From positions 1 to 54,661 of IMG/VR virus record IMGVR_UViG_3300021962_000133: 54,661 nucleotides of DNA; one strand, 5' to 3'. The translations under genes were made by a program, and so were the position numbers. Below the pieces are notes generated by a model that was given only the letters and a program-made list of their open reading frames with translations, ran no database searches and was not told the origin of the DNA. Source of the stretch: a virus. Shown here one piece after another: positions 1-54,661 of the stretch. Position 1 is the first letter of the stretch. Every line of letters starts with the position of its first letter.

Positions 1-18
1 AATTCAAAAATGATTCTG

Positions 19-42
19 GACCGTCATGTGACGGTCTTTTTT
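19..42 (+). terminator. Rho-independent terminator
   Basis: A 7-8 bp perfect stem (GACCGTCA paired with TGACGGTC) is followed at once by six T. It would end a + strand transcript entering from the left of the window. Confidence 0.8.
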
Positions 43-227
43 GTTGGAAAGGATTCTGTGTTACTTGGGTGTGGACTACCCAGTATACGGAAAATGATTC
101 TGGGGGAGCCTACCCCTGATCTCTTCACACCTTGCAACCGGTGCGCCCTTCGTACTTTTTCTTTCCGACATGTATAATATAACAAGCCCTGTGTGTAAAA
201 ACAAGCTTTGGTTTACATGAGAATTTC
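43..227. other. Non-coding leader region with short repeats
   Basis: I see no convincing gene here. The element AAAATGATTCTGG occurs at about 7-19 and again at about 92-104, with a weaker copy (AAAGGATTCTGTG) at 47-59. Small GC-containing hairpins are possible (GGGT...ACCC around 67-82 and GGGG...CCCC around 103-117). The stretch is richer in GC than the flanking early genes. It could be a structured leader or the end of an RNA, but no tRNA cloverleaf fits. Confidence 0.4.
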
Positions 228-254
228 ATTATATTATAGTATAAGAAAGAAAAT
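228..254 (+). promoter_or_regulatory. Early-type promoter/leader repeat, copy 1
   Basis: TTATATTATAGTATAAGAAAGAAAAT runs directly into the ATG at 255. The same block recurs before at least five further genes up to 1662. I read TATATTATA as the promoter core and AAGAAAGA as the purine-rich leader. The promoter role is inferred from repetition and position. Confidence 0.7.
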
Positions 255-494
255 ATGAAAGATATGAAAAAAGAAAATGAAGTAAAATTTAATGATGAAA
301 TAAAAGAATTTATTGATAGTAAAGTAATTGAAGCGTGTAATGATAATTCTTTTAATGGTTTAGTTGAATGTGGATGGTTTGATAATGAATTAGTTATTGA
401 AATTATTGAATTGTTTGGTGATGGAGATTATGATGATGTTTGTGATGAAATAAAAGAATATATTGTTAAAGTAGTAAAAAGACATGAGGTATAA
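255..494 (+). CDS. Small acidic early protein (79 aa), unknown
   Basis: No family recognised. The protein is rich in Asp/Glu and Lys, with a charged N-terminus (MKDMKKENEVKFNDEIKEF) and an acidic patch around residues 55-65 (FGDGDYDDVCDEIKEY). No membrane segment or cysteine motif is visible beyond three isolated Cys. The start is fixed by the promoter/leader repeat ending on its ATG. Small acidic proteins made early by T4-type phages often bind host proteins or mimic DNA, but nothing here shows that directly. Confidence 0.75.
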   Translation: MKDMKKENEVKFNDEIKEFIDSKVIEACNDNSFNGLVECGWFDNELVIEIIELFGDGDYDDVCDEIKEYIVKVVKRHEV

Positions 495-518
495 AGTGAG
501 TTTGTTATTGTGAAATAA

Positions 519-549
519 ATTTATTATATTATAGTATAAGAAAGAAAAT
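519..549 (+). promoter_or_regulatory. Early-type promoter/leader repeat, copy 2
   Basis: TTATTATATTATAGTATAAG followed by AAAGAAAAT leads straight into the ATG at 550. It is almost base-for-base identical to copy 1, so the duplication covers both promoter core and leader. Confidence 0.7.
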
Positions 550-795
550 ATGAAAGAGTTAAAATTAAAATTTAAAGATGGTGTGTATGGGTTTGTGTAT
601 GATGCAATGTATGGTGATATATCAGAGGTTGTTAAAAAACCTTTATCTAAAGAAACTATAGAGTTTTTTAATAACAATACAGAAGATGATTATGTTTTAT
701 TTACAACAACAGATGAGTTAGCAGAGTTGTTTGGTATTGAGTGTGAGGCACATGTAACAGAGTATTGGGGTGATATATTGGAGATCGCAAAATAA
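550..795 (+). CDS. Small acidic early protein (81 aa), unknown
   Basis: No family recognised. It begins MKELKLKFKDGVYGFVYDA and is acidic in the C-terminal half (NNTEDDYVLFTTTDELAELF). It looks like a compact alpha/beta protein with no signal peptide or membrane helix. The start is set by the upstream promoter repeat. It belongs to the string of individually promoted early genes and shares no obvious sequence with its neighbours. Confidence 0.72.
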   Translation: MKELKLKFKDGVYGFVYDAMYGDISEVVKKPLSKETIEFFNNNTEDDYVLFTTTDELAELFGIECEAHVTEYWGDILEIAK

Positions 796-798
796 TTT

Positions 799-828
799 GT
801 TATATTATAGTATAAGAAAGATAAAAAT
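799..828 (+). promoter_or_regulatory. Early-type promoter/leader repeat, copy 3
   Basis: TGTTATATTATAGTATAAG followed by AAAGATAAAAAT lies directly before the ATG at 829. It has the same core as copies 1 and 2 with a leader 3 nt longer than copy 1. Confidence 0.7.
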
Positions 829-1080
829 ATGAGAGCAAGTATTAAAGAAGTAATGTGCGAGTTAAAAAAGGTTCAAGGTTTGGGTTTGTTAATCTCAGAC
901 GCAGACGCAAACAGAGTGATCAACAGAAAAACTCGTACAAAGAGAGGCAAAACAATGTCTAAAGAAAAGTTAGTAGATTTAGAAAAGCCATTCAAACTAA
1001 ATAACACTCTTTACTACCCACTAATTGTAAAATTAGATGATTGTCACTTTAATAATAATATGAGAGGAGTTATCGCATAA
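829..1080 (+). CDS. Small early protein (83 aa), unknown
   Basis: No family recognised. The N-terminal half is basic (INRKTRTKRGKTMSKEK, about residues 31-47) and the C-terminal half is neutral, with the stretch KPFKLNNTLYYPLIVKLDD. The start follows promoter repeat copy 3. The final A of its TAA stop is the first base of the next ATG (1-nt overlap), so the next gene is probably translated by coupling. Confidence 0.68.
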   Translation: MRASIKEVMCELKKVQGLGLLISDADANRVINRKTRTKRGKTMSKEKLVDLEKPFKLNNTLYYPLIVKLDDCHFNNNMRGVIA

Positions 1081-1184
1081 TGGTAACTCTATTCATGATT
1101 GTATTTTACGCGTTTATTATTCTGGTATGTGCGGCACTAGAGAAATTGACTAGGCCAAACGGTAAAAAGGGATTGTGGGGATAA
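1080..1184 (+). CDS. 34-aa membrane peptide
   Basis: A short reading frame, MVTLFMIVFYAFIILVCAAL then EKLTRPNGKKGLWG, starts on the last base of the preceding stop codon (TAATG). Residues 2-20 form one hydrophobic helix followed by a positively charged tail, so the likely topology is N-out/C-in. No family recognised. It is one of three micro-membrane proteins in this early block, which argues that it is real. Confidence 0.55.
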   Translation: MVTLFMIVFYAFIILVCAALEKLTRPNGKKGLWG

Positions 1185-1209
1185 CATGCTTGGCATGCTC
1201 CACACCCTA

Positions 1210-1237
1210 TGCTATATTACAGTATAAGAAAGATAAT
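1210..1237 (+). promoter_or_regulatory. Early-type promoter/leader repeat, copy 4
   Basis: GCTATATTACAGTATAAG followed by AAAGATAAT leads into the ATG at 1238. One core base differs from copies 1-3 (TTACAG instead of TTATAG), a change shared only with copy 5. Confidence 0.68.
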
Positions 1238-1456
1238 ATGAAAAAGATAATCGCAACATTTAAAGTAACTGACGACGCTGGAAATTTGATCAAAATGTAT
1301 ACCATGACAGCTATGGACCATACAGATTTGTATGTTATGACCTCAGTGGCTAGAGAGGTATGGGATGAGTATCATGTGGAGGTAGAAACAGATTTGTTCA
1401 CACAGTCATTTTCACACACATACAAAGAGGAAGTGATGCTTGGGCTCGCTAAATAA
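1238..1456 (+). CDS. Small early protein (72 aa), unknown
   Basis: I chose the ATG at 1238 rather than a GTG 63 nt upstream, because the promoter/leader repeat ends exactly there. The protein (MKKIIATFKVTDDAGNLIK...) looks like a small beta-rich fold with alternating hydrophobic residues, and it is acidic in the middle (VWDEYHVEVETDLF). No family recognised and no signal peptide. Confidence 0.7.
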   Translation: MKKIIATFKVTDDAGNLIKMYTMTAMDHTDLYVMTSVAREVWDEYHVEVETDLFTQSFSHTYKEEVMLGLAK

Positions 1457-1460
1457 TTTC

Positions 1461-1487
1461 ACTATATTACAGTATAAGAAAGATAAT
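1461..1487 (+). promoter_or_regulatory. Early-type promoter/leader repeat, copy 5
   Basis: ACTATATTACAGTATAAG followed by AAAGATAAT ends on the ATG at 1488. From the TATATTACAG core to the ATG it matches copy 4, indicating a recent duplication. Confidence 0.68.
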
Positions 1488-1595
1488 ATGAAAGAGATAA
1501 TTAAAGACACAGTAATTGCAGTTATGTATTTGTTTGGCGCTTCAATGTTGGGAGCAGCTTTTGTAATTGGGCTTTACACAATGTGTGGTTATTAA
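1488..1595 (+). CDS. 35-aa membrane peptide
   Basis: The short frame MKEIIKDTVIAVMYLFGASM then LGAAFVIGLYTMCGY follows directly on promoter repeat copy 5. Residues 8-31 are a single small-residue-rich hydrophobic helix (G-A-S-x-x-G-A-A), a pattern common in helix packing. No known family. The dedicated promoter supports expression. Confidence 0.6.
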   Translation: MKEIIKDTVIAVMYLFGASMLGAAFVIGLYTMCGY

Positions 1596-1621
1596 GATAA
1601 TTTGGCCGCACACGGAAATTT

Positions 1622-1659
1622 AGTTATATTATAGTATAAGAAAGATAAAATAAGAAGAT
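1622..1659 (+). promoter_or_regulatory. Early-type promoter/leader repeat, copy 6
   Basis: TAGTTATATTATAGTATAAG followed by AAAGATAAAATAAGAAGAT precedes the ATG at 1660. The sequence upstream (CGCACACGGAAATTTAGTTATATTA, from about 1606) recurs with a few changes at about 1778-1801, so this cassette and the next are duplicates. Confidence 0.65.
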
Positions 1660-1764
1660 ATGAAAAAGTCAAATGGAGTATTTAGCAATGACATTAGCAA
1701 CATTTTGTTGGTTGCAGGATGGTTTTTATTGGTTACAGCGGTTGCATTAATTGTTACACAATAA
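1660..1764 (+). CDS. 34-aa membrane peptide
   Basis: The short frame MKKSNGVFSNDISNILLVAG then WFLLVTAVALIVTQ has a polar N-terminus of about 13 residues and one hydrophobic helix (about residues 14-33) running to the C-terminus. It is preceded by promoter repeat copy 6. No family recognised. Its build resembles a tail-anchored micro-protein. Confidence 0.55.
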   Translation: MKKSNGVFSNDISNILLVAGWFLLVTAVALIVTQ

Positions 1765-1789
1765 GGTAAGTTTGGCACCGCACGAAGAT

Positions 1790-1841
1790 TTAGTTATATT
1801 AATAAGGTAAAAGAAAGTAAAATAAAAAGAAATAAAAAGTT
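1790..1841 (+). promoter_or_regulatory. Degenerate early promoter/leader repeat, copy 7
   Basis: TTTAGTTATATTAATAAGGT followed by AAAAGAAAG retains the left flank and the AAGAAAG leader but has lost the exact TATAGTATAAG core. A long A-rich leader (AAAATAAAAAGAAATAAAAA) leads to the ATG at 1842. Confidence 0.5.
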
Positions 1842-2132
1842 ATGAGCAAAAAAGTAAACAACACAAACACAATCGAAGTTATTCAAGTTAACACTATCAG
1901 CAAAAATGGTAAGCGTTTAGGCCGCCCAGCAAATGCAAGCAGTCGCCGCCAACAGACATTGGCTTTAAAAGCTGAGTTGCGTGAGCAAGGTTTGCTTAAA
2001 AAAGGTCGTCCAGTTGATCCAACTAGTAAAAAACAACAACGTGAACAAGCACGTTTGGAATTTCTAGCTAATGGAGGTGTTATTAAGCGTGGCCGTCCAA
2101 AGATGGTTAAAGCTGAAACAACTGAAGCATAA
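1842..2132 (+). CDS. Triple AT-hook DNA-binding protein (96 aa)
   Basis: Three G-R-P cores flanked by basic residues are evenly spaced: KRLGRPAN at about 24-31, KKGRPVDP at about 53-60 and KRGRPKMV at about 82-89. The intervening segments are Lys/Arg/Gln-rich and predicted helical (RRQQTLALKAELREQG and SKKQQREQARLEF). AT-hooks insert Arg-Gly-Arg into the minor groove of AT-rich DNA, so this protein could coat or regulate this AT-rich genome or the host chromosome. Its codons contain more G/C (cgc, cgt, ggc) than its neighbours. The DNA-binding role is an inference from the motifs. Confidence 0.72.
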   Translation: MSKKVNNTNTIEVIQVNTISKNGKRLGRPANASSRRQQTLALKAELREQGLLKKGRPVDPTSKKQQREQARLEFLANGGVIKRGRPKMVKAETTEA

Positions 2133-2153
2133 GTTAATTAGTTTAAAAACACT

Positions 2154-2175
2154 AGCCCGCCAAAGTGCGGGCTTA
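2154..2175 (+). terminator. Stem-loop, probable terminator
   Basis: AGCCCGC and GCGGGCT form a perfect 7-bp GC-rich stem with a 6-nt loop 21 nt after the AT-hook gene. The following T-tract is weak (TTACAG), so it may attenuate rather than fully terminate. Confidence 0.55.
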
Positions 2176-2198
2176 CAGTGTTGATAATAGTTATATAC

Positions 2199-2459
2199 AT
2201 GAACGAAAATAAAGAATTAATGGAATTTCTTAAGAATCTACGTGACACATTGACTGAATTGACTGATGACGTAGATACTGAATTGCGTGATGTTGAAAAC
2301 ATTGAATTGTCAGATGAGATCTATAAGTCAGTAGTCTCTAAACTTGATGCTGCATTGAGCGGATGTGATGACCTTATCGATGAATTAGAAGCCGGATCGT
2401 TCAATCGTGATGATATATACGATGACGATGATGGACTTTTTGATGATGTAGATTTCTAA
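2199..2459 (+). CDS. Highly acidic small protein (86 aa), unknown
   Basis: The start is placed at the ATG (MNENKELMEFLKNLRDTL) rather than an in-frame TTG 21 nt earlier that abuts the stem-loop. The protein is helical and very acidic, ending in an Asp run (about residues 70-86, DDIYDDDDGLFDDVDF). Such an acidic tail could mimic nucleic acid or contact a basic partner such as the neighbouring AT-hook protein, but this is conjecture. No family recognised. Confidence 0.68.
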   Translation: MNENKELMEFLKNLRDTLTELTDDVDTELRDVENIELSDEIYKSVVSKLDAALSGCDDLIDELEAGSFNRDDIYDDDDGLFDDVDF

Positions 2460-2703
2460 AATCTGTCTCTAGAGACCCCCGGTAATTGCTTTCCCGTAAA
2501 GACGGTCTTGGTGGACCGGGATATGTTTGCGTAACTTTTAACTCGTAAACGATTTTTCACATCGATGCGTATATACATATATACCCACAATTAACTTACA
2601 ATTCCGTTTTAACCCATTTGACATAAAATCCACGGGATGTAAAATCTCTTTTTTATAAAATTTTTTGTATTGACTAAAGTATATACTTATATACAATAGG
2701 TGA
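2460..2703. other. Convergent intergenic region with inverted repeats
   Basis: This 244-nt gap separates + strand genes from convergent - strand genes. It holds a 12-bp perfect palindrome GTCTCTAGAGAC at 2465-2476, an inverted repeat CCCGGT (2478-2483)/ACCGGG (2515-2520) enclosing a smaller hairpin CGGTC/GACCG (2503-2507/2514-2518), and two related near-palindromes, GTATATACATATATAC at 2569-2584 and GTATATACTTATATAC at 2679-2694. No gene is visible. Two-way termination or a small structured RNA are the simplest readings. Confidence 0.5.
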
Positions 2704-2883
2704 TTATAGGAATTTTTTCCTACGTTCCTCTAAATCCTCAATTTTATCCCAGCCTTTTATAGCCCTGTTTTTATTGAATGTTTGTAATACTTCCCATGTT
2801 ACAAAATGAGTATCACCGTTTGATGTTTGTACTAAGCAACCTTCTTTTTCCTCTTTCAATATCTCAATACTCCAGACTTTCAT
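2704..2883 (-). CDS. Small hypothetical protein (59 aa)
   Basis: The reading frame starts MKVWSIEILKEEKEGCLVQT and ends with a charged helix (WDKIEDLEERRKKFL). It begins 3 nt beyond the stop of the gene upstream on the same strand, consistent with one polycistronic message. No family recognised. The N-terminal half alternates like a small beta sheet (VQTSNGDTHFVTWEVLQTF). Confidence 0.6.
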   Translation of the reverse strand: MKVWSIEILKEEKEGCLVQTSNGDTHFVTWEVLQTFNKNRAIKGWDKIEDLEERRKKFL

Positions 2884-2886
2884 GTA

Positions 2887-3183
2887 TTATCTATCCGATT
2901 TATGTACTTCAACTCCTTCTTCAATATAAGTAACCGTGTGTTTAATTTCAGCATCACTCATTAGTTTAGAAAATAATTCAGCCATTTTAATCCAATCATC
3001 AGGGTTGTTTAAAGTTAATTTGATTTTGAATTTAGAATCACCAAATTCCATTGATTGATATGGATGGTAATTTGATGATATGCTTATATTTGAATTAGGT
3101 GAAGAAGTTGGATTATATACTATAGAATGACTCACATTACTACCAACACCAACATTTAATAAATTTGTACTTTTATTTTTCAT
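2887..3183 (-). CDS. Hypothetical protein (98 aa)
   Basis: The N-terminal half is Ser/Asn-rich and probably unstructured (residues 4-45, with SSPNSNISISSNYHPYQS). It is followed by a compact domain with FKIKLTLNNPDDWIKMAELF and a C-terminal beta hairpin (HTVTYIEEGVEVHKSD). No family recognised. It lies 3 nt after the stop codon of the upstream small gene. Confidence 0.65.
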   Translation of the reverse strand: MKNKSTNLLNVGVGSNVSHSIVYNPTSSPNSNISISSNYHPYQSMEFGDSKFKIKLTLNNPDDWIKMAELFSKLMSDAEIKHTVTYIEEGVEVHKSDR

Positions 3184-3186
3184 AAC

Positions 3187-3348
3187 TTACTTTTGTTTTT
3201 GTTTAGCATAATATAATGAGTCATGTTTTCCTTTCCAAGCTACCCATTGTACTTCTCCTTTTCTAATTTGTTTACGGGTTTTTACAGCGCCACCAACACT
3301 TAATCCTAATATCAGAGCAATTCCTGCTTTCATCCATAATTCAAACAT
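3187..3348 (-). CDS. Small membrane-anchored basic protein (53 aa)
   Basis: The short frame MFELWMKAGIALILGLSVGG has a hydrophobic glycine-rich N-terminal helix (about residues 7-21), followed by a basic soluble tail (KTRKQIRKGEVQWVAWKGK...KQKQK). Topology is probably N-out/C-in by the positive-inside rule. No family recognised. It fits between its neighbours on the same strand with 3-9 nt gaps, supporting it as a real gene. Confidence 0.6.
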   Translation of the reverse strand: MFELWMKAGIALILGLSVGGAVKTRKQIRKGEVQWVAWKGKHDSLYYAKQKQK

Positions 3349-3357
3349 ACAATTTAT

Positions 3358-3684
3358 TTAATCTAATCCAAAAGGTTCTCCAAGTATTTTATGTATTACT
3401 CTTCTAAAAGTTTTTTGGAATTCTTCTTGTAATACACTCATAACTTCTTCTTGTAATTTAGGATCATCTTTTAATTTTTCCATTTTTCCATTACTACCGT
3501 CATGATACATAGCACTCATTTTAAAAAATACAGATGGTGAGTTTTTTTCACCATCATCTATAATCTGCATTTTAATAGAAGGAACATCATCAAATTCATT
3601 GTCATCTTCAATTTTATTAAATTCAACAGATTCTTTATTTATTCTATTTTCAGTTAAAAATTTCTTTAAGTCAAAGTTATCCAT
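3358..3684 (-). CDS. Hypothetical protein with capsid-tag-like N-terminus (108 aa)
   Basis: The N-terminus MDNFDLKKFLTENRINKES resembles residues 11-25 of the protein at 38189-39154 (HKAFAKYLAENKLTSSS), and both contain L-x-E-N. This matches the L-x-E cut site expected for the gp21-like protease encoded here, so I suspect a head-targeting tag. The rest is acidic in the middle and ends in a helical segment (EVMSVLQEEFQKTFRRVIHK). A TATTTATC element ends 3 nt before the ATG on this strand, marking probable late expression. Function unknown. Confidence 0.65.
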   Translation of the reverse strand: MDNFDLKKFLTENRINKESVEFNKIEDDNEFDDVPSIKMQIIDDGEKNSPSVFFKMSAMYHDGSNGKMEKLKDDPKLQEEVMSVLQEEFQKTFRRVIHKILGEPFGLD

Positions 3685-3687
3685 AAT

Positions 3688-3695
3688 GATAAATA
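3688..3695 (-). promoter_or_regulatory. Late-promoter-like octamer (TATTTATC)
   Basis: On the - strand TATTTATC ends 3 nt before the ATG at 3684. It is one mismatch from the TATTTATA element found before many + strand structural genes. Confidence 0.5.
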
Positions 3696-4370
3696 TTACT
3701 TAACTTTCTTTAATTTCAAATCCTTAATTACCTTACTAGCTATTTTTTTATGTCCAGATGGGGCCATATGACATAAATTGTCCCAACAGTCTCTTCTATC
3801 AACTACCCTAGTATCTATTACAATTGCTCCCTCCATATCACTGGTTAAAAGTAATTGTTGAAACTTCGCATACCTTGTTGCATAATTTGGGTTTTGCGTT
3901 TTAGTACATTTTAAAGCGTCAAATCCCGTTAATACTACACATGTTATACCTCTTTTAACAGCCATCCTAACAATACCTTTGATATTTTCAACAGCATGTT
4001 CTGGCTTAATGTGACTTGAATACATGTCATTAGCTCCTCCATAAACAAATACATAATCAACTTTATCATTGATTTTATATAACGCTTGATCTAACATCCA
4101 ATAAGTTGTTTTACCTCCAACAGAAGCATTAATCATTTTAAAACCAACTGAATCACTTAATTGTTTTTGCCAACCTTGAGTGTGATTGGATGTATGTGAA
4201 TCACCTATATACAATGCTGTTTTATTTTTAACACTTACTAATGTGTCTTTAATGACTACTGTGTCATTATATATTTTGGGTGTTATAACTGGTTGATTTG
4301 TTTTGTAAACTGCTGCACTTAAAAATCCCATTATTAAAGCAGCGAATAAAACTGATTGTTTAATATTCAT
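3696..4370 (-). CDS. Exported SGNH/GDSL-family hydrolase (224 aa)
   Basis: An N-terminal hydrophobic segment (residues 6-20) suggests a signal peptide or anchor. The SGNH blocks follow in order: ALYIGDSHTSN with nucleophile Ser58, the block II glycine in NASVGGKT (about 81-88), GGAND (111-115) with oxyanion Asn114, and CHMAPSGH (200-207) with catalytic His201. This family contains esterases and deacetylases acting on lipids and polysaccharides, so trimming host surface or extracellular polysaccharide is plausible. The gene overlaps the upstream small gene by 11 nt, suggesting coupled translation. The acid usually three residues before the His is displaced (Asp197). Substrate unknown. Confidence 0.72.
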   Translation of the reverse strand: MNIKQSVLFAALIMGFLSAAVYKTNQPVITPKIYNDTVVIKDTLVSVKNKTALYIGDSHTSNHTQGWQKQLSDSVGFKMINASVGGKTTYWMLDQALYKINDKVDYVFVYGGANDMYSSHIKPEHAVENIKGIVRMAVKRGITCVVLTGFDALKCTKTQNPNYATRYAKFQQLLLTSDMEGAIVIDTRVVDRRDCWDNLCHMAPSGHKKIASKVIKDLKLKKVK

Positions 4371-4539
4371 ATTTGTTTTTTATTTTTTTTAATTCATTAT
4401 AAGCTTCTCTAACTATTAAGTGATTACATTTAATTTTAGTTGTTTTTTTTAATTCACTTACTTTATCATGTAATTCATGAAAAAAACCTTTTACATGGGC
4501 TTTATGATACAATTCTTCAACAAGTTCTTCATTAGTCAT
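4360..4539 (-). CDS. Small basic helical protein (59 aa), unknown
   Basis: I prefer the start MTNEELVEELYHKAHVKGFF over a Met two codons earlier, because the late-type octamer TATTTATG then ends 3 nt before the ATG, the same spacing as the gene starting at 3684. The protein is helical and Lys-rich (KVSELKKTTKIKCNHL). No family recognised. Its 3' end overlaps the SGNH hydrolase start by 11 nt. Confidence 0.6.
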   Translation of the reverse strand: MTNEELVEELYHKAHVKGFFHELHDKVSELKKTTKIKCNHLIVREAYNELKKIKNKYEY

Positions 4540-4542
4540 AAA

Positions 4543-4550
4543 CATAAATA
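4543..4550 (-). promoter_or_regulatory. Late-promoter-like octamer (TATTTATG)
   Basis: On the - strand TATTTATG ends 3 nt before the ATG at 4539. Its last three bases form an alternative in-frame ATG, so it also bears on the choice of start. Confidence 0.5.
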
Positions 4551-4551
4551 T

Positions 4552-4785
4552 TTATTTTCTTCTTTTTGTTTTTCTTGTTTTCTTTGTACTATCAATTTTT
4601 TTCATTTGTCTAGCTACTCTTTTTTGAATCTTAGTTTCCCTAAGTTCCATATTCATTTCTTTTATTGTTTTAGCATATGTAATATCTACTCTGATTGGAT
4701 TTTTTGATACTTCTGTATCATAATGCCAAACTGTTTTCTTAATATCACTACCTTTTTCACTTTCAAACACCCTAGTATATTTCAT
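4552..4785 (-). CDS. Basic hypothetical protein (77 aa)
   Basis: The N-terminal part is a small mixed fold (MKYTRVFESEKGSDIKKTVW). The C-terminal 20 residues are almost entirely basic (VARQMKKIDSTKKTRKTKRR), which would suit nucleic-acid contact. No family recognised. A TTATATTATACTAAG element like the early repeats lies immediately upstream on this strand. Confidence 0.62.
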   Translation of the reverse strand: MKYTRVFESEKGSDIKKTVWHYDTEVSKNPIRVDITYAKTIKEMNMELRETKIQKRVARQMKKIDSTKKTRKTKRRK

Positions 4786-4787
4786 AT

Positions 4788-4802
4788 CTTAGTATAATAT
4801 AA
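4788..4802 (-). promoter_or_regulatory. Early-type promoter core on the - strand
   Basis: Read on the - strand this is TTATATTATACTAAG, matching the TTATATTATAGTATAAG core of the + strand early cassettes at most positions. It ends 2 nt before the ATG of the gene at 4552-4785. Confidence 0.55.
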
Positions 4803-4884
4803 TAAAATTTGCCCGTAAAGCCAAACTTACTTTAATATTTTTTAGTATATATGTATATAGGGATTAAGAATGTGCGCACGAAAA

Positions 4885-5085
4885 CTAGGGTTTTTTTCTT
4901 TTTCTTAAAAGCTTTTTACTTTTTTCCACAAAAGGCTTGGCTTCCCAAGGAAGATTCATTATCTTCTCCCTTGTTAAAGAAGGTATGAATGAATGAGAAT
5001 GAGAGAATGAGGAAGGAAGGATAAGGAAAGAATGAGAAATGAAGGAATAAAGTAACAAAAATAAGATTAGCAATAGACCTTGCAT
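4885..5085 (-). CDS. Possible small membrane protein (66 aa)
   Basis: The frame starts with an ATG and a strongly hydrophobic segment (MQGLLLILFLLLYSFISHSF). A Ser/His/Phe-rich stretch from a purine-biased DNA repeat (GAATGAG/GGAAGG units on the + strand) follows, then a basic tail (MNLPWEAKPFVEKSKKLLRK). The tail alone, starting at 4959, would make a 24-aa basic peptide. Either version could be real, or the frame may be an accident of the repeat. No homologue recognised. Confidence 0.35.
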   Translation of the reverse strand: MQGLLLILFLLLYSFISHSFLILPSSFSHSHSFIPSLTREKIMNLPWEAKPFVEKSKKLLRKRKKP

Positions 5086-5107
5086 ATATAAAAATTATAT
5101 CTGCATA

Positions 5108-5115
5108 TATTTATA
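5108..5115 (+). promoter_or_regulatory. Late-promoter-like octamer TATTTATA
   Basis: TATTTATA ends 5 nt before the ATG of the glutaredoxin-like gene. It is the first + strand copy of the element that recurs through the structural region. Confidence 0.6.
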
Positions 5116-5120
5116 TACGA

Positions 5121-5414
5121 ATGAATAAACAAAAGTTATTACTTGAAGCTATTAAAAGTAGCAGGTTATTTAATGTTACTAGTGAAGTACCTAAAACATA
5201 TGTCTTAGGATTAACATATTGTGAACACTGTACTCAACTGGAAGAAGAATTAAAATCTAGAAATATAAACTATACTTTTATTGATGCTGGAGATAATGAT
5301 GATTTTTCTGATAAGATAGAAAAAATAACTAAAAATGAATATTATCCAATGATTATAATCTATAATGGTTTAATGGTTGAGATATATGACATAGATTTTA
5401 AATCCCTAATATAA
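5121..5414 (+). CDS. Glutaredoxin-like protein (97 aa) with tag-like N-terminus
   Basis: The thioredoxin fold is indicated by beta-strand residues YVLGLTY, the redox pair C34-E-H-C37 at a helix start, and the cis-proline region YYPM (Pro76). Length fits glutaredoxins with an N-terminal extension. T4-type phages use such proteins to reduce ribonucleotide reductase. The first residues, MNKQKLLLEAIKSSRLF, contain L-L-E-A and resemble the head-targeting tags seen later in the window, so packaging is possible. A late-type octamer ends 5 nt before the ATG. Confidence 0.72.
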   Translation: MNKQKLLLEAIKSSRLFNVTSEVPKTYVLGLTYCEHCTQLEEELKSRNINYTFIDAGDNDDFSDKIEKITKNEYYPMIIIYNGLMVEIYDIDFKSLI

Positions 5415-5650: not shown

Positions 5651-6424
5651 ATGTTAACACCAGAAAAAATTCAATCTAATTGGCAGCAGTTTTTAGAGTT
5701 AATTGAGACTCACATTTCCTCTCCTCGTAAGGAAAAATTATTAGACTTTTATAATAAGTATGAGGAACGTTTTTGTTTGATGCCTGCTAGTCACAAAAAA
5801 GAATACCATAACTGCTTCCCAGGTGGTTATGTTGATCATGTATTGCGTGTTGTTGAAGCTGCCTTAGATATGGATCAAGTATGGAAAAAATTTGGTGTTA
5901 AAGAAACATACACTACTGAAGAGTTAGTATTTTCAGCTTTAAATCATGACTTAGGAAAATTTGGTGACTTTGATCATGAAGCTGTTATACCTAACCCTTC
6001 AGAGTGGCATGTTCAAAATCGTGGTGAAATTTACGCTTTTAATCCAGCACTTGCTTATATGACTGTTCCAGATAGAGGTTTATGGTTATTAACTCAATAT
6101 GGAATTAATTTCACCCAAAATGAAATGTTAGCTATTAAATTACATGATGGATTATATGATGATTCAAATAAACCTTATTTGATGACTTGGATGCCTGAGA
6201 CAAAACCTAGAACATCTTTAATTTATATTGTTCATCAGGCTGATTTAATGGCAGCACGTATTGAATTTGAACATGCTTATCTTGATAAGTTTGTTGATCC
6301 TAGAACTATTTCAAAACCTAAAAAAGAATATACAAAACCTACAGCAGCTATTAATAAGGATAAAGCTTTTAAATCATTAAGCAAAAATAATCCTGGATTT
6401 GCAGATATGCTTAAAAATTTATAA
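5651..6424 (+). CDS. HD-domain phosphohydrolase-like protein (257 aa)
   Basis: A metal-binding HD pattern is visible: His53 and His63 in HNCFPGGYVDHVLRVVE, the HD doublet in ALNHDLGKFGD (99-100), a later LHDGLYDD and an Asp in VHQADLMAARIE (about 200). HD enzymes remove phosphate or pyrophosphate from nucleotides and signalling nucleotides, so a role in nucleotide pools or host alarm signals is reasonable. The basic Lys-rich C-terminus looks flexible. The substrate cannot be deduced. Confidence 0.7.
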   Translation: MLTPEKIQSNWQQFLELIETHISSPRKEKLLDFYNKYEERFCLMPASHKKEYHNCFPGGYVDHVLRVVEAALDMDQVWKKFGVKETYTTEELVFSALNHDLGKFGDFDHEAVIPNPSEWHVQNRGEIYAFNPALAYMTVPDRGLWLLTQYGINFTQNEMLAIKLHDGLYDDSNKPYLMTWMPETKPRTSLIYIVHQADLMAARIEFEHAYLDKFVDPRTISKPKKEYTKPTAAINKDKAFKSLSKNNPGFADMLKNL

Positions 6425-6427
6425 TAT

Positions 6428-6700
6428 ATGGTAACAACTATTTTAAATATTGCTCTTTGGATTTTCACATTAGCAGGATATGCTATTTGGAATCTTATGA
6501 AAAAAACAGAGCGTTTAGAAACAATTATTGAAGAACAACAGATTTTAATTAATCAAATATCTACTGTTATTGACGAATCTGATCGTGTTTTAACAGAAAT
6601 TGATCAAAGAGGTTCATTTTCATCAGATGATGAAATAGGATGGTTTTTTAAAGCAGTTAAAGAAATTCAATCTGCTTTAAATCAATTTATTAAAAAATAA
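6428..6700 (+). CDS. Membrane-anchored coiled-coil protein (90 aa)
   Basis: One N-terminal membrane helix (about residues 4-23, TILNIALWIFTLAGYAIW) is followed by a long polar coiled coil (KTERLETIIEEQQILINQIS) and an amphipathic C-terminal helix. The ATG lies 3 nt after the previous stop, and its own stop overlaps the ATG of the sigma factor by one base (TAATG). No family recognised. Confidence 0.65.
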   Translation: MVTTILNIALWIFTLAGYAIWNLMKKTERLETIIEEQQILINQISTVIDESDRVLTEIDQRGSFSSDDEIGWFFKAVKEIQSALNQFIKK

Positions 6701-7464: not shown

Positions 7465-7481
7465 ATTTTTTCTTTAACTTG

Positions 7482-7489
7482 TATTTATA
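7482..7489 (+). promoter_or_regulatory. Late-promoter-like octamer TATTTATA
   Basis: TATTTATA ends 13 nt before the ATG at 7503, at the head of the tail/baseplate operon and directly downstream of the sigma factor gene. Confidence 0.62.
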
Positions 7490-7502
7490 TTATATACAAG
7501 CT

Positions 7503-7835
7503 ATGAATTTTGATACAATTATATTTAAAGACAAAACATTTGGTTCATTATTAGAGGACATTTATAAAAATTCTAAAGAGAAAGAAAAACAACTAAAAGC
7601 TTTAATTTCTCAATTAAAAGAATTTATTCATGAACCAGGTGATGCTGTTATGATGGTACCTTTATTAAAAGAATATCTTGAAATAAGTGTTAAAAATGAT
7701 GATGCTTTAATTAAGATGGCAGGTATAGTTCAAAGAGCTATGAATGCTTCTTCTAATGAAGGAGGTGATTTATTAACAGAAAAAGAAAAAGAAATGTTAT
7801 TTCAATCATTACAAGATTTAAACACTAACGACTAA
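7503..7835 (+). CDS. Hypothetical helical protein at head of tail module (110 aa)
   Basis: I start at MNFDTIIFKDKTFGSLLEDI, downstream of the late octamer, rather than at an upstream in-frame ATG that overlaps the octamer. The protein is alpha-helical and charged, with segments KNSKEKEKQLKALISQLKEF and LLTEKEKEMLFQSLQ. No family recognised. Its stop overlaps the next ATG by 1 nt, so it belongs to the baseplate operon and may be an assembly factor or virion protein. Confidence 0.65.
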   Translation: MNFDTIIFKDKTFGSLLEDIYKNSKEKEKQLKALISQLKEFIHEPGDAVMMVPLLKEYLEISVKNDDALIKMAGIVQRAMNASSNEGGDLLTEKEKEMLFQSLQDLNTND

Positions 7836-37614: not shown

Positions 37615-37638
37615 GTTTGGCTTTAGTAATTTTTTTAA

Positions 37639-37648
37639 TTATATTATA
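37639..37648 (+). promoter_or_regulatory. Early-type promoter core (TTATATTATA)
   Basis: TTATATTATA, identical to the core of the early cassettes, ends 5 nt before the ATG at 37654. Confidence 0.5.
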
Positions 37649-37653
37649 ATATT

Positions 37654-38178
37654 ATGAAAATAGGTTTATGTGGAACAATGTCAGTTGGTAAAACTACATT
37701 GATTAATAATTTAATTCAAATTTCTCATTTTTCTGATTATAATAAAGCTACTGAAAGATCTAAATATCTAAGTAGTTTAGGTATTCCATTAAATACTGAT
37801 TCTACATTAGAAGGTCAATTTATATTTTTAGCTGAAAGAGCTACTGAATTATTACAAACTAATATTTTAACTGATAGAACAATTTGGGATGTATGTGCTT
37901 TTACAGCTTTAGCTAAATCTATTGATAATGGAGATAAATTCTATTTTGAAAAAGCAGCTATGACATTAAAAAATAAATATGATTTAGTAGTTTATGTTAA
38001 ACCTGATGGAGTAGCTATTGAAGATAATGGTATTAGAGAAACAGATTCTACTTATAGAGATGAAATTGATTACCAAATTCGTAACTTATTAGAATTATAC
38101 CCACCTAAAAATTTACTAACTATATCAGGATCAGTAGAAGATCGCATTAAGGCTATTATTAACCATATTTATAAATAA
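37654..38178 (+). CDS. P-loop nucleotide/nucleoside kinase (174 aa)
   Basis: The Walker A motif is GTMSVGKTT (7-15). Later FIFLAERATELLQ and TDRTIWDVCAF (with an Asp-Arg pair) and the lid-like segment YKDE/YRDEIDYQIRNLLELY fit a deoxynucleoside-monophosphate or NadR-type kinase. It would phosphorylate a nucleoside or nucleotide to feed phage replication. It lacks the cargo tag and has an early-type promoter core, consistent with a role in the infected cell. The late octamer of the next gene lies inside its 3' end. Confidence 0.7.
   Translation: MKIGLCGTMSVGKTTLINNLIQISHFSDYNKATERSKYLSSLGIPLNTDSTLEGQFIFLAERATELLQTNILTDRTIWDVCAFTALAKSIDNGDKFYFEKAAMTLKNKYDLVVYVKPDGVAIEDNGIRETDSTYRDEIDYQIRNLLELYPPKNLLTISGSVEDRIKAIINHIYK
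38166..38173 (+). promoter_or_regulatory. Late-promoter-like octamer TATTTATA
   Basis: It ends 15 nt before the ATG at 38189 and overlaps the last codons of the kinase gene. Confidence 0.6.
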
Positions 38179-54166: not shown

Positions 54167-54661
54167 ATGGGTGGACAAATAAAAGGTAAACAGTTAGTAA
54201 CAGATTTACACTTATCTGGGTCATTAACAATGACTGGAAGTATAGTAATTTCAGGTTCAAATCCTTTAACTATAGTAGGTTTACAAAATAATCCAAGTCC
54301 TAATTATAATTTAACTTATAATAACGTAACAGGAATTGTTTCTTATGGAGTAGCTTCATCAGGAATATCAGGTTCAAGTGGTTCATCAGGATCATCAGGC
54401 AGCTCTGGATCTTCAGGTAGTTCAGGATCAAGTGGAAGTTCAGGGTCATCTGGCTCAAGTGGTTCTTCTGGTTCAAGCGGCTCAAGTGGTTCTTCTGGCT
54501 CAAGTGGTTCTTCTGGTTCTTCTGGATCAAGTGGTTCAAGCGGCTCAAGTGGTTCTTCTGGTTCTTCTGGATCAAGTGGTTCTTCTGGTTCTTCTGGTTC
54601 TTCTGGTTCTTCTGGTTCTTCTGGTTCTTCTGGTTCTTCTGGTTCTTCTGGTTCTTCTGGT
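54167..54661 (+). CDS. Collagen-like (Gly-Ser-Ser)n protein, truncated by window end
   Basis: The N-terminal ~62 residues (MGGQIKGKQLVTDLHLSGSL ... NLTYNNVTGIVSYGVAS) are a short beta-rich attachment domain. From about residue 65 the sequence is almost pure Gly-Ser-Ser triplets, at least 30 of them, to the last base of the window. Gly-X-Y triplets in phage proteins often form a trimeric collagen-like fibre shaft, here with Ser at both X and Y. The frame stays open (165 codons so far), so a C-terminal tip domain must lie outside. Probably a fibre or decoration protein. Confidence 0.7.
   Translation, partial: MGGQIKGKQLVTDLHLSGSLTMTGSIVISGSNPLTIVGLQNNPSPNYNLTYNNVTGIVSYGVASSGISGSSGSSGSSGSSGSSGSSGSSGSSGSSGSSGSSGSSGSSGSSGSSGSSGSSGSSGSSGSSGSSGSSGSSGSSGSSGSSGSSGSSGSSGSSGSSGSSG
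54364..54661 (+). repeat. 9-nt tandem repeat array encoding (GSS)n
   Basis: Units of GGTTCTTCT, GGATCAAGT, GGCTCAAGT and similar alternate from about 54364. From 54578 to the window end the array is a perfect run of GGTTCTTCT, just over nine copies. Such a run is prone to slippage and to assembly collapse. Confidence 0.85.

Follow-up and report, generated by a model that had tools for sequence, protein, structure and literature searches.

How does a large phage take up small genes that belong to no recognizable family, and how does it express them once they have arrived? The question is raised by the left end of the virus record IMGVR_UViG_3300021962_000133 of IMG/VR (54,661 bases; "the window" below means this whole stretch), in which a short block is repeated between positions 208 and 1842 in front of one small gene after another. 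An initial annotation had read the blocks as seven tandem promoter cassettes and the locus as a swap-in platform for early host-takeover genes. We consider it probable, as one joint proposition, that this is an array of exchangeable promoter cassettes, each composed of a bipartite TTG-N19/20-TATATTA promoter and a leader, and that the window holds the right-hand end of the array in a zone of gene turnover. The proposition is based on what was observed: the anatomy of the blocks, their fixed spacing, the gene content of a collinear relative (contig L008), a syntenic architecture in Flavobacterium phage immuto, and gene exchange and a one-unit indel among further relatives.

Judged from its sequence, the window represents part of the genome of a T4-like phage, and among named phages immuto is its closest relative. 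Its matches in PHROGs include a baseplate wedge, a terminase large subunit, a portal and a major head protein. The head protein is 54% identical to the homolog annotated as Gp23 in immuto, the best named match, and such a set with a Gp23-type head protein is that of a T4-type phage genome. From 5651 on, the gene order is largely that found in immuto beginning with the phosphohydrolase (about 77.1 kb). Because of this kinship, the host was presumably a member of the Bacteroidota. The spacing of the promoters alone is insufficient for such an assignment, since a sigma-70 promoter (TTGACA, 17, TATAAT) has a spacing equal to that of TTG-N20-TATATT, which is therefore no proof of the host phylum.

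The repeats proved to be real, with six near-identical blocks and one divergent block at 208-1842, each running into an ATG. The motif TTATATTATAGTATAAG occurs without any mismatch at 229, 524, 800 and 1624, and with two mismatches at 1212 and 1462; the blocks had been located before with coordinates that were off by 1-5 nt. When up to three mismatches were allowed, 13 matches were found against 3.2 expected, and none of 100 shuffles reached 13. The motif first reported is repeated as claimed, but it covers only the -7 box and the leader, and a TTG lying 19 or 20 nt upstream of TATATTA has to be added in all seven copies (208, 502, 778, 1190, 1440, 1602 and 1772). The seventh block has more than three mismatches to TTATATTATAGTATAAG, yet TTG (1772)-N20-TATATTA (-7 box 1795) is kept. 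At the 37 TATATTAYA sites of the window, L005, L006 and L008, the TTG was found at spacer 20 in 19 cases and at spacer 19 in three, while no other spacing occurred more than twice. In the window, TTG-N19/20-TATATTAYA has nine sites against 0.34 expected, with a shuffle maximum of three. This fixed spacing supports the reading of the blocks as tandem predicted promoters.

The distance from the -7 box to the ATG is 25, 25, 28, 25, 25, 35 and 47 nt in copies 1 to 7. Among copies 1-6, the 22-nt segment of -7 box and leader is identical at 20.9 of 22 positions on average and the 23-nt -33/spacer half at 10.4 of 23, so that the uniform unit is the -7 box with its leader and not the -33/spacer half. 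The earlier remark that TTACAG is common to copies 4 and 5 was confirmed, as was the upstream similarity of copies 6 and 7, which agree at 18 of 23 positions in the -33/spacer half against the above mean for copies 1-6. The seventh copy, which had been called decayed, is not: compared by eye, the leader (GTAAAAGAAAGTAAAATAAAAAGAAATAAAAAGTTATG) is shared with L008. In the -7/leader segment of copy 7, 11-12 of 22 positions match the other copies, but 18 of 22 match the corresponding copy in L008. Because of this low match on one side and the high match with leader identity on the other, copy 7 is best described as a separate predicted promoter, vertically kept, of a 96-amino-acid (96-aa) gene. 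The claim of one micro-gene per promoter holds for most copies but not for copy 3, which precedes two open reading frames (ORFs); seven promoters serve eight ORFs.

All units lie on the forward strand. Promoter 1 (208-254; TTG 208, spacer 19, -7 box TATATTATA from 230, leader up to the ATG at 255) precedes a 79-aa ORFan (255-494) with no homolog among the 148 loci compared. Promoter 2 (502-549, -7 box 525) is followed by an 81-aa ORF (550-795), whose L008 homolog (37 residues identical) has a promoter with a different leader. Promoter 3 (778-828, -7 box 801), its TTG within the 3' end of the preceding ORF, stands before an 83-aa ORFan (829-1080) and then a 34-aa ORF (1080-1184). Promoter 4 (1190-1237, -7 box 1213) has the C variant TTACAG and a strong stem-loop over its TTG, and leads to a 72-aa ORF (1238-1456). 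Promoter 5 (1440-1487, -7 box 1463), also with the C variant, precedes a 35-aa ORF (1488-1595) with a homolog in L008 (18 residues identical). Promoter 6 (1602-1659, -7 box 1625), with a stem-loop over the TTG and a -33 half in common with promoter 7, is followed by a 34-aa ORF (1660-1764); L008 has no unit at that place. Promoter 7 (1772-1841, -7 box 1795, TATATTAATAAGG), which has a long leader peculiar to it and kept in L008, belongs to the 96-aa ORF (1842-2132), the sole widely conserved gene of the array, whose protein bears three GRP repeats that we take to be AT-hook-like.

L008 and the window are collinear, and most of their matched stretches are about 73-77% identical in DNA, but L008 has homologs for only three of the eight array ORFs (550-795, 1488-1595 and 1842-2132). 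For ORFs 255, 829, 1080, 1238 and 1660, a tblastn search of the 148 loci at E up to 0.01 gave no homolog in L008. The first position is occupied in L008 by a different gene, of 57 aa, which was not found among the translated array ORFs of the window. A comparison of relatives had been proposed in the initial annotation, and it reveals that the gene content between the repeats does differ. The leader block of the L008 ortholog of ORF 550 matches at 14 of 22 positions only. Because the C variant of copy 4 is common to copy 5 and to the orthologous promoter of copy 5 in L008 (22/22 over -7 box and leader), and because the copy 4 gene is missing in L008, the copy 4 cassette was probably added beside copy 5. 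The stepwise duplication suggested before is thus plausible, although gene conversion or selection on the leader would fit equally well. A second contig retrieved besides L008 by a scan with a conserved 19-mer, L139, was taken as a chance match.

The same architecture was found in immuto, all 160,366 bases of which were scanned. There are 16 copies of TAT[AC]TTTAG[AGT]TATnAATAATTAAAA, all in 67,587-73,776 and before small-gene starts, where the repeated leader precedes single ORFan genes. This array lies upstream of the phosphohydrolase, which is 44% identical to the product of 5651-6424 in the window. TTG-N20-TAT[ACT]TTTAG occurs 27 times in immuto, 19 of them on the forward strand within 66.9-76.2 kb. 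The -7/leader agreement is 21.0/22 among the 16 copies and 12.8/22 between immuto and the window, and the -33/spacer agreement within immuto is 12.5/23. The leader is therefore constant inside one phage but not from phage to phage, with the same architecture in the same place. Another relative, G001, has a GRP-repeat protein 76% identical to that of the window and also the leader of the window (21.3/22), with 10 promoter-plus-leader matches (at most two mismatches) in its first 14 kb and none in the control. Gene differences between the window and G001 were not taken as gain or loss: the reversed G001 ends with the GRP-repeat gene and a terminator-like block resembling, by eye, the first 60 bases of the window, so that the two hardly overlap.

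A search with the phosphohydrolase yielded 43 loci. The comparison comprised 18 syntenic regions in which 3.5 kb or more of upstream sequence was present (16 loci, the window and immuto). A strict forward pattern, TTG-N20-TA[CT][AC]TT[AT][AC], which catches three of the seven window copies, has at least three sites in nine of the 18 regions, and none of 200 shuffles reached that number; L127, L128 and L135 have the same sites and were counted as one. Two sites each were present in L121, L134, L115, L130 and L098. In a set of 116 promoter-ORF pairs there are nine groups in which near-identical -33/spacer halves precede more than one protein family, and some of the groups lie within a single genome. 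The clearest, ttgtcctccatctttgtcctta, stands before four unrelated protein families in seven loci. At this site, L103 and L120 differ by 219 bp. The unit, delimited by -7 boxes, consists of a single gene together with one -7 box and leader, and its flanks match at 96.6% on one side and 83.8% on the other. The swap-in platform is thus supported by the syntenic change of gene content, by one -33/spacer half before four genes and by the one-unit indel, as a comparative pattern of units mediating gene shuffling and not as an observed recombination event.

In the mechanism that we propose, each cassette would consist of the bipartite promoter and the 22-nt -7/leader segment, which hardly varies among copies 1-6; the start lies in a context rich in adenines, and in most cases a single small ORFan gene follows. 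The blocks would be active promoters, and every gene would arrive with, or land behind, a promoter and leader. Recombination at this repeated segment could then result in gain, loss and exchange of genes, and the neighbours would be undisturbed because each has a promoter and leader of its own. We infer that the uniformity of the leader is due to such recombination and not to selection alone. The products of the array may act on the host.

Passages of PMC6847099 and PMC9723704 give the promoter of the Bacteroidota primary sigma factor (sigma-ABfr / sigma-A) as TTTG at -33 and TANNTTTG at -7, and in F. johnsoniae the G at -5 is described as near-invariant and the -33 motif as much less evident (PMC6847099). 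As in these promoters, a TA..TT box is preceded in the array by a TTG at a distance of 19-20 nt (7/7 copies, with TTTG in 4/7), and the distance from box to ATG is compatible with Flavobacterium mRNA leaders. Unlike them, the array has no G at -5 and, in the window, also an A at -6, the copies being TATATTAT, TATATTAC or TATATTAA, and its -33 element is strong whereas that of the host class is weak. The canonical host -7 form is not enriched in the window (six sites, 7.8 expected). On the forward strand of immuto, the base after TTG-N20-TAHHTTT is A in 34 cases and G in none; the A:G ratio is 19:0 in L102, L103 and L120 together, 9:0 in L091 and 4:0 in L127, and on the reverse strand of immuto the counts are A 5, G 3, C 4 and T 10. 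In five Flavobacteriaceae genomes, which are a crude control, the G form occurs 572 times against 387 in the control and the A form 734 times against 732; G005 has an excess of both forms and G006 no excess of the G form. The A in place of G at -5 speaks against a simple assignment to the host sigma-A, and we regard the predicted array promoters as not being ordinary members of the Bacteroidota class.

One possible explanation, to which we give less than even weight and which is compatible with the exchange of cassettes, is a phage-specific class of delayed-early or middle promoters requiring a phage factor or an alternative sigma factor. It would agree with the A at -5 in immuto and the relatives just named, with the enrichment of the G form and not the A form in the five Flavobacteriaceae genomes, and with a -33 TTG stronger than that described in passages on F. 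johnsoniae. However, strong contacts at -33 could offset the weaker -7 box with an ordinary host polymerase, no phage factor was identified, and the host control is not only crude but has the two exceptions mentioned. We are somewhat more doubtful of a wider version, in which these phages would run their own promoter class (host geometry, strong -33 TTG, A at -5) fused to a leader that is homogenized inside each phage but not across phage groups. With the altered box, phage promoters would stay active while the G-5 promoters of the host are shut off, and the -7/leader segment would be both a regulatory tag and a recombination handle for gene capture. A different and unlikely explanation is that the repeats are conserved 5' leaders serving translation or mRNA stability in one long transcript, TATATTATA being incidental. 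Under it, one would understand why the -7/leader block is more uniform than the -33 half, why the TTG of several copies falls within the preceding ORF or at its end, with no strong stem-loop, and why adenines are found upstream of the starts, since these promote translation in Flavobacterium johnsoniae according to passages of PMC6847099. It would not explain a TTG fixed at 19-20 nt upstream of the box both in the array and at isolated sites, nor the same geometry with an unrelated leader in immuto, nor the copies that lie on or directly behind stem-loops, where an operon would be cut.

The uniformity of the leader could also be due to selection acting on each copy separately, with a gene turnover unrelated to the repeats. 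A segment of 22 nt is short for homologous recombination, and a single regulator common to all copies, or a preference at the start site, could account for the uniformity in a given phage. On the other hand, the exchange junctions in relatives lie at or near the -7 box, L102 and L103 have the same -33 half with another leader and gene, and also the converse, and the leader block of the ORF 550 ortholog in L008 has diverged to the 14 of 22 matches given above; we consider selection alone rather improbable. Chance similarity in an AT-rich window, or an assembly artefact in a metagenomic fragment that begins inside the array zone, is practically negligible in view of the shuffle tests for motif and spacing and of independent contigs from other metagenomes with the same motif and leader. 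Several points do weigh against the array of exchangeable promoter cassettes. Five of the seven copies have no strong stem-loop, and read-through between units is therefore likely. Of the six positions that are near-invariant in the host consensus, two are not matched by the -7 box. A single close relative covering the array was found, so that the count of gains and losses in the window rests on one comparison. Some G001 copies of the same leader precede runs of several ORFs, and strict-pattern sites number one in L137 and none in L101, L119 and L126.

In agreement with the initial annotation, which called the array products unrelated, the eight ORFs have no convincing mutual similarity (blastp, best E 0.08). 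There was no usable family match in Pfam, PHROGs and, for some of the proteins, PADLOC, the single weak PHROG match being that of the 72-aa ORF (E 0.04). Five of the proteins were not found by tblastn in 50,697 phage records, and Rfam gave no match for window 1-5200. In shuffled DNA, a random ATG remains open for at least 72 codons with p 0.0012 and for 34 codons with p 0.047. The long array ORFs are therefore unlikely to be chance, and those of 34-35 aa lean on their position, ORF 1488 being additionally backed by its L008 homolog. Three small ORFs (1080, 1488 and 1660) have a hydrophobic stretch. Over 85 residues, the 96-aa protein has 91% identity with its homolog in L008. Its relatives occur in many of the loci compared, mostly those retrieved around the syntenic phosphohydrolase; a sequence search of the PDB gave no match. 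Two matches to it occurred in each of L090-L092, indicating one more copy nearby in L091 and L092, and several matching stretches in L137.

The array is likely an early expression class because it is without the box of the late genes. Structural and other genes from 5651 on bear a box of another kind: ATTTATA is the 7-mer most strongly associated with starts, which follow it by 5-45 nt at 16 of its 48 occurrences (p about 1e-10, without correction for the number of 7-mers tried). None of the seven array starts has a box of this ATATTTATA type, so that the array does not fall into the late promoter class. In immuto there are 24 late-type sites, none inside the array. The T4 late promoter is TATAAATA, and the ATATTTATA box, likewise a short AT box upstream of starts, looks like its late-type counterpart in these phages. 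The array promoters differ from both in having the -33 TTG and no ATATTTATA box.

The core of the array also occurs elsewhere in the window, at 4802 (-) and 37639 (+), which the initial annotation had given as 4788 and before 37654; a third site at 182 (-) had been overlooked. None of the three has the GTATAAGAAAGA leader. The last is a divergent leftward promoter (173-204, minus strand; TTG from 204, spacer 20, -7 box from 181). The copy at 4802 (4793-4824, minus strand) lies upstream of a leftward group of small genes (2704-4785), and the plus-strand copy (37617-37653) precedes a thymidylate-kinase-like gene (37654-38178). Genes for a GDSL-like lipase/acylhydrolase (3696-4370, minus strand) and a glutaredoxin (5121-5414, plus strand) adjoin the array. 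Behind the leftward promoter, a conserved stretch GGGCGCACCGGTTGCAAGGTGTG... without a convincing ORF (window 182-10, L008 915-735, both minus strand) had no match in Rfam and is a candidate small RNA. Another repeat, AAA(n)GATTCTGG, is found in clusters close to the array in the window (7-110; two forward copies), L008 (517-830; five) and G001, with four copies counted in L006 (minus strand, 4970-1229), against about 0.1 or fewer expected. Some copies precede a hairpin with a T-run, and the repeat is absent from the scanned immuto tiles. By eye, a conserved non-coding AT-rich stretch with many TATATG/TGTATG words was seen in L008 (about 300-500) and G001 (about 870-690, minus strand). A near-palindrome cttgtaTTTATATTATAtacaag before a conserved gene (window 7475-7503, the same in L008 at 6640-6675) has no TTG at spacer 20 and is perhaps an operator or another type of promoter. 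In another contig, L007, 26 forward TTG-N19/20-TATATTA sites were counted over 14.7 kb, where 0.36 would be expected on the two strands together, and many of them precede single small ORFs. The last ORF of the window (54352-54661) matches many places within single relatives (among them L051, L023 and L019) and may encode a repeat-rich, perhaps fibre-like protein.

The array would give a concrete anatomy for the uptake and expression of small genes of unknown kind by large phages of Bacteroidota. TTG-N20-TAHHTTTA is suggested as a search rule for the promoters and ORFan genes of these phages, and the A/G difference at -5 makes a separation of phage and host transcription directly testable. The nearest known systems are the PeSLs (promoter early stem-loops), reportedly described by Arbiol et al. 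2010 (GBE 2:140) and Comeau et al. 2014 (GBE 6:1611) as mobile regulatory cassettes of T4-type phages. Passages of citing papers refer to them in this group of phages (PMC4503421, PMC4177764), and no description of such arrays in Bacteroidota phages was recognized in the titles and abstracts of open-licence papers. The resemblance lies in the T4-type phage, in repeated short promoter units between small ORFan genes and in the gene shuffling between relatives at these units. In contrast to PeSLs, a strong stem-loop accompanies only two of the seven window copies (dG -18.6 and -12.3; z -2.8 and -2.9), with 5/16 in immuto, 3/10 in L006 and 0/5 in L008; the promoter geometry is Bacteroidota-like, and the near-invariant part is the -7 box with its leader. 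Because gene exchange is found and the stem-loop is present in just two of seven copies, we class the predicted array as PeSL-like and not as a PeSL array proper. The mechanism would extend one known from T4-type phages to those of Bacteroidota, and its unusual features would be the homogenized -7/leader block and the promoter class with A at -5.

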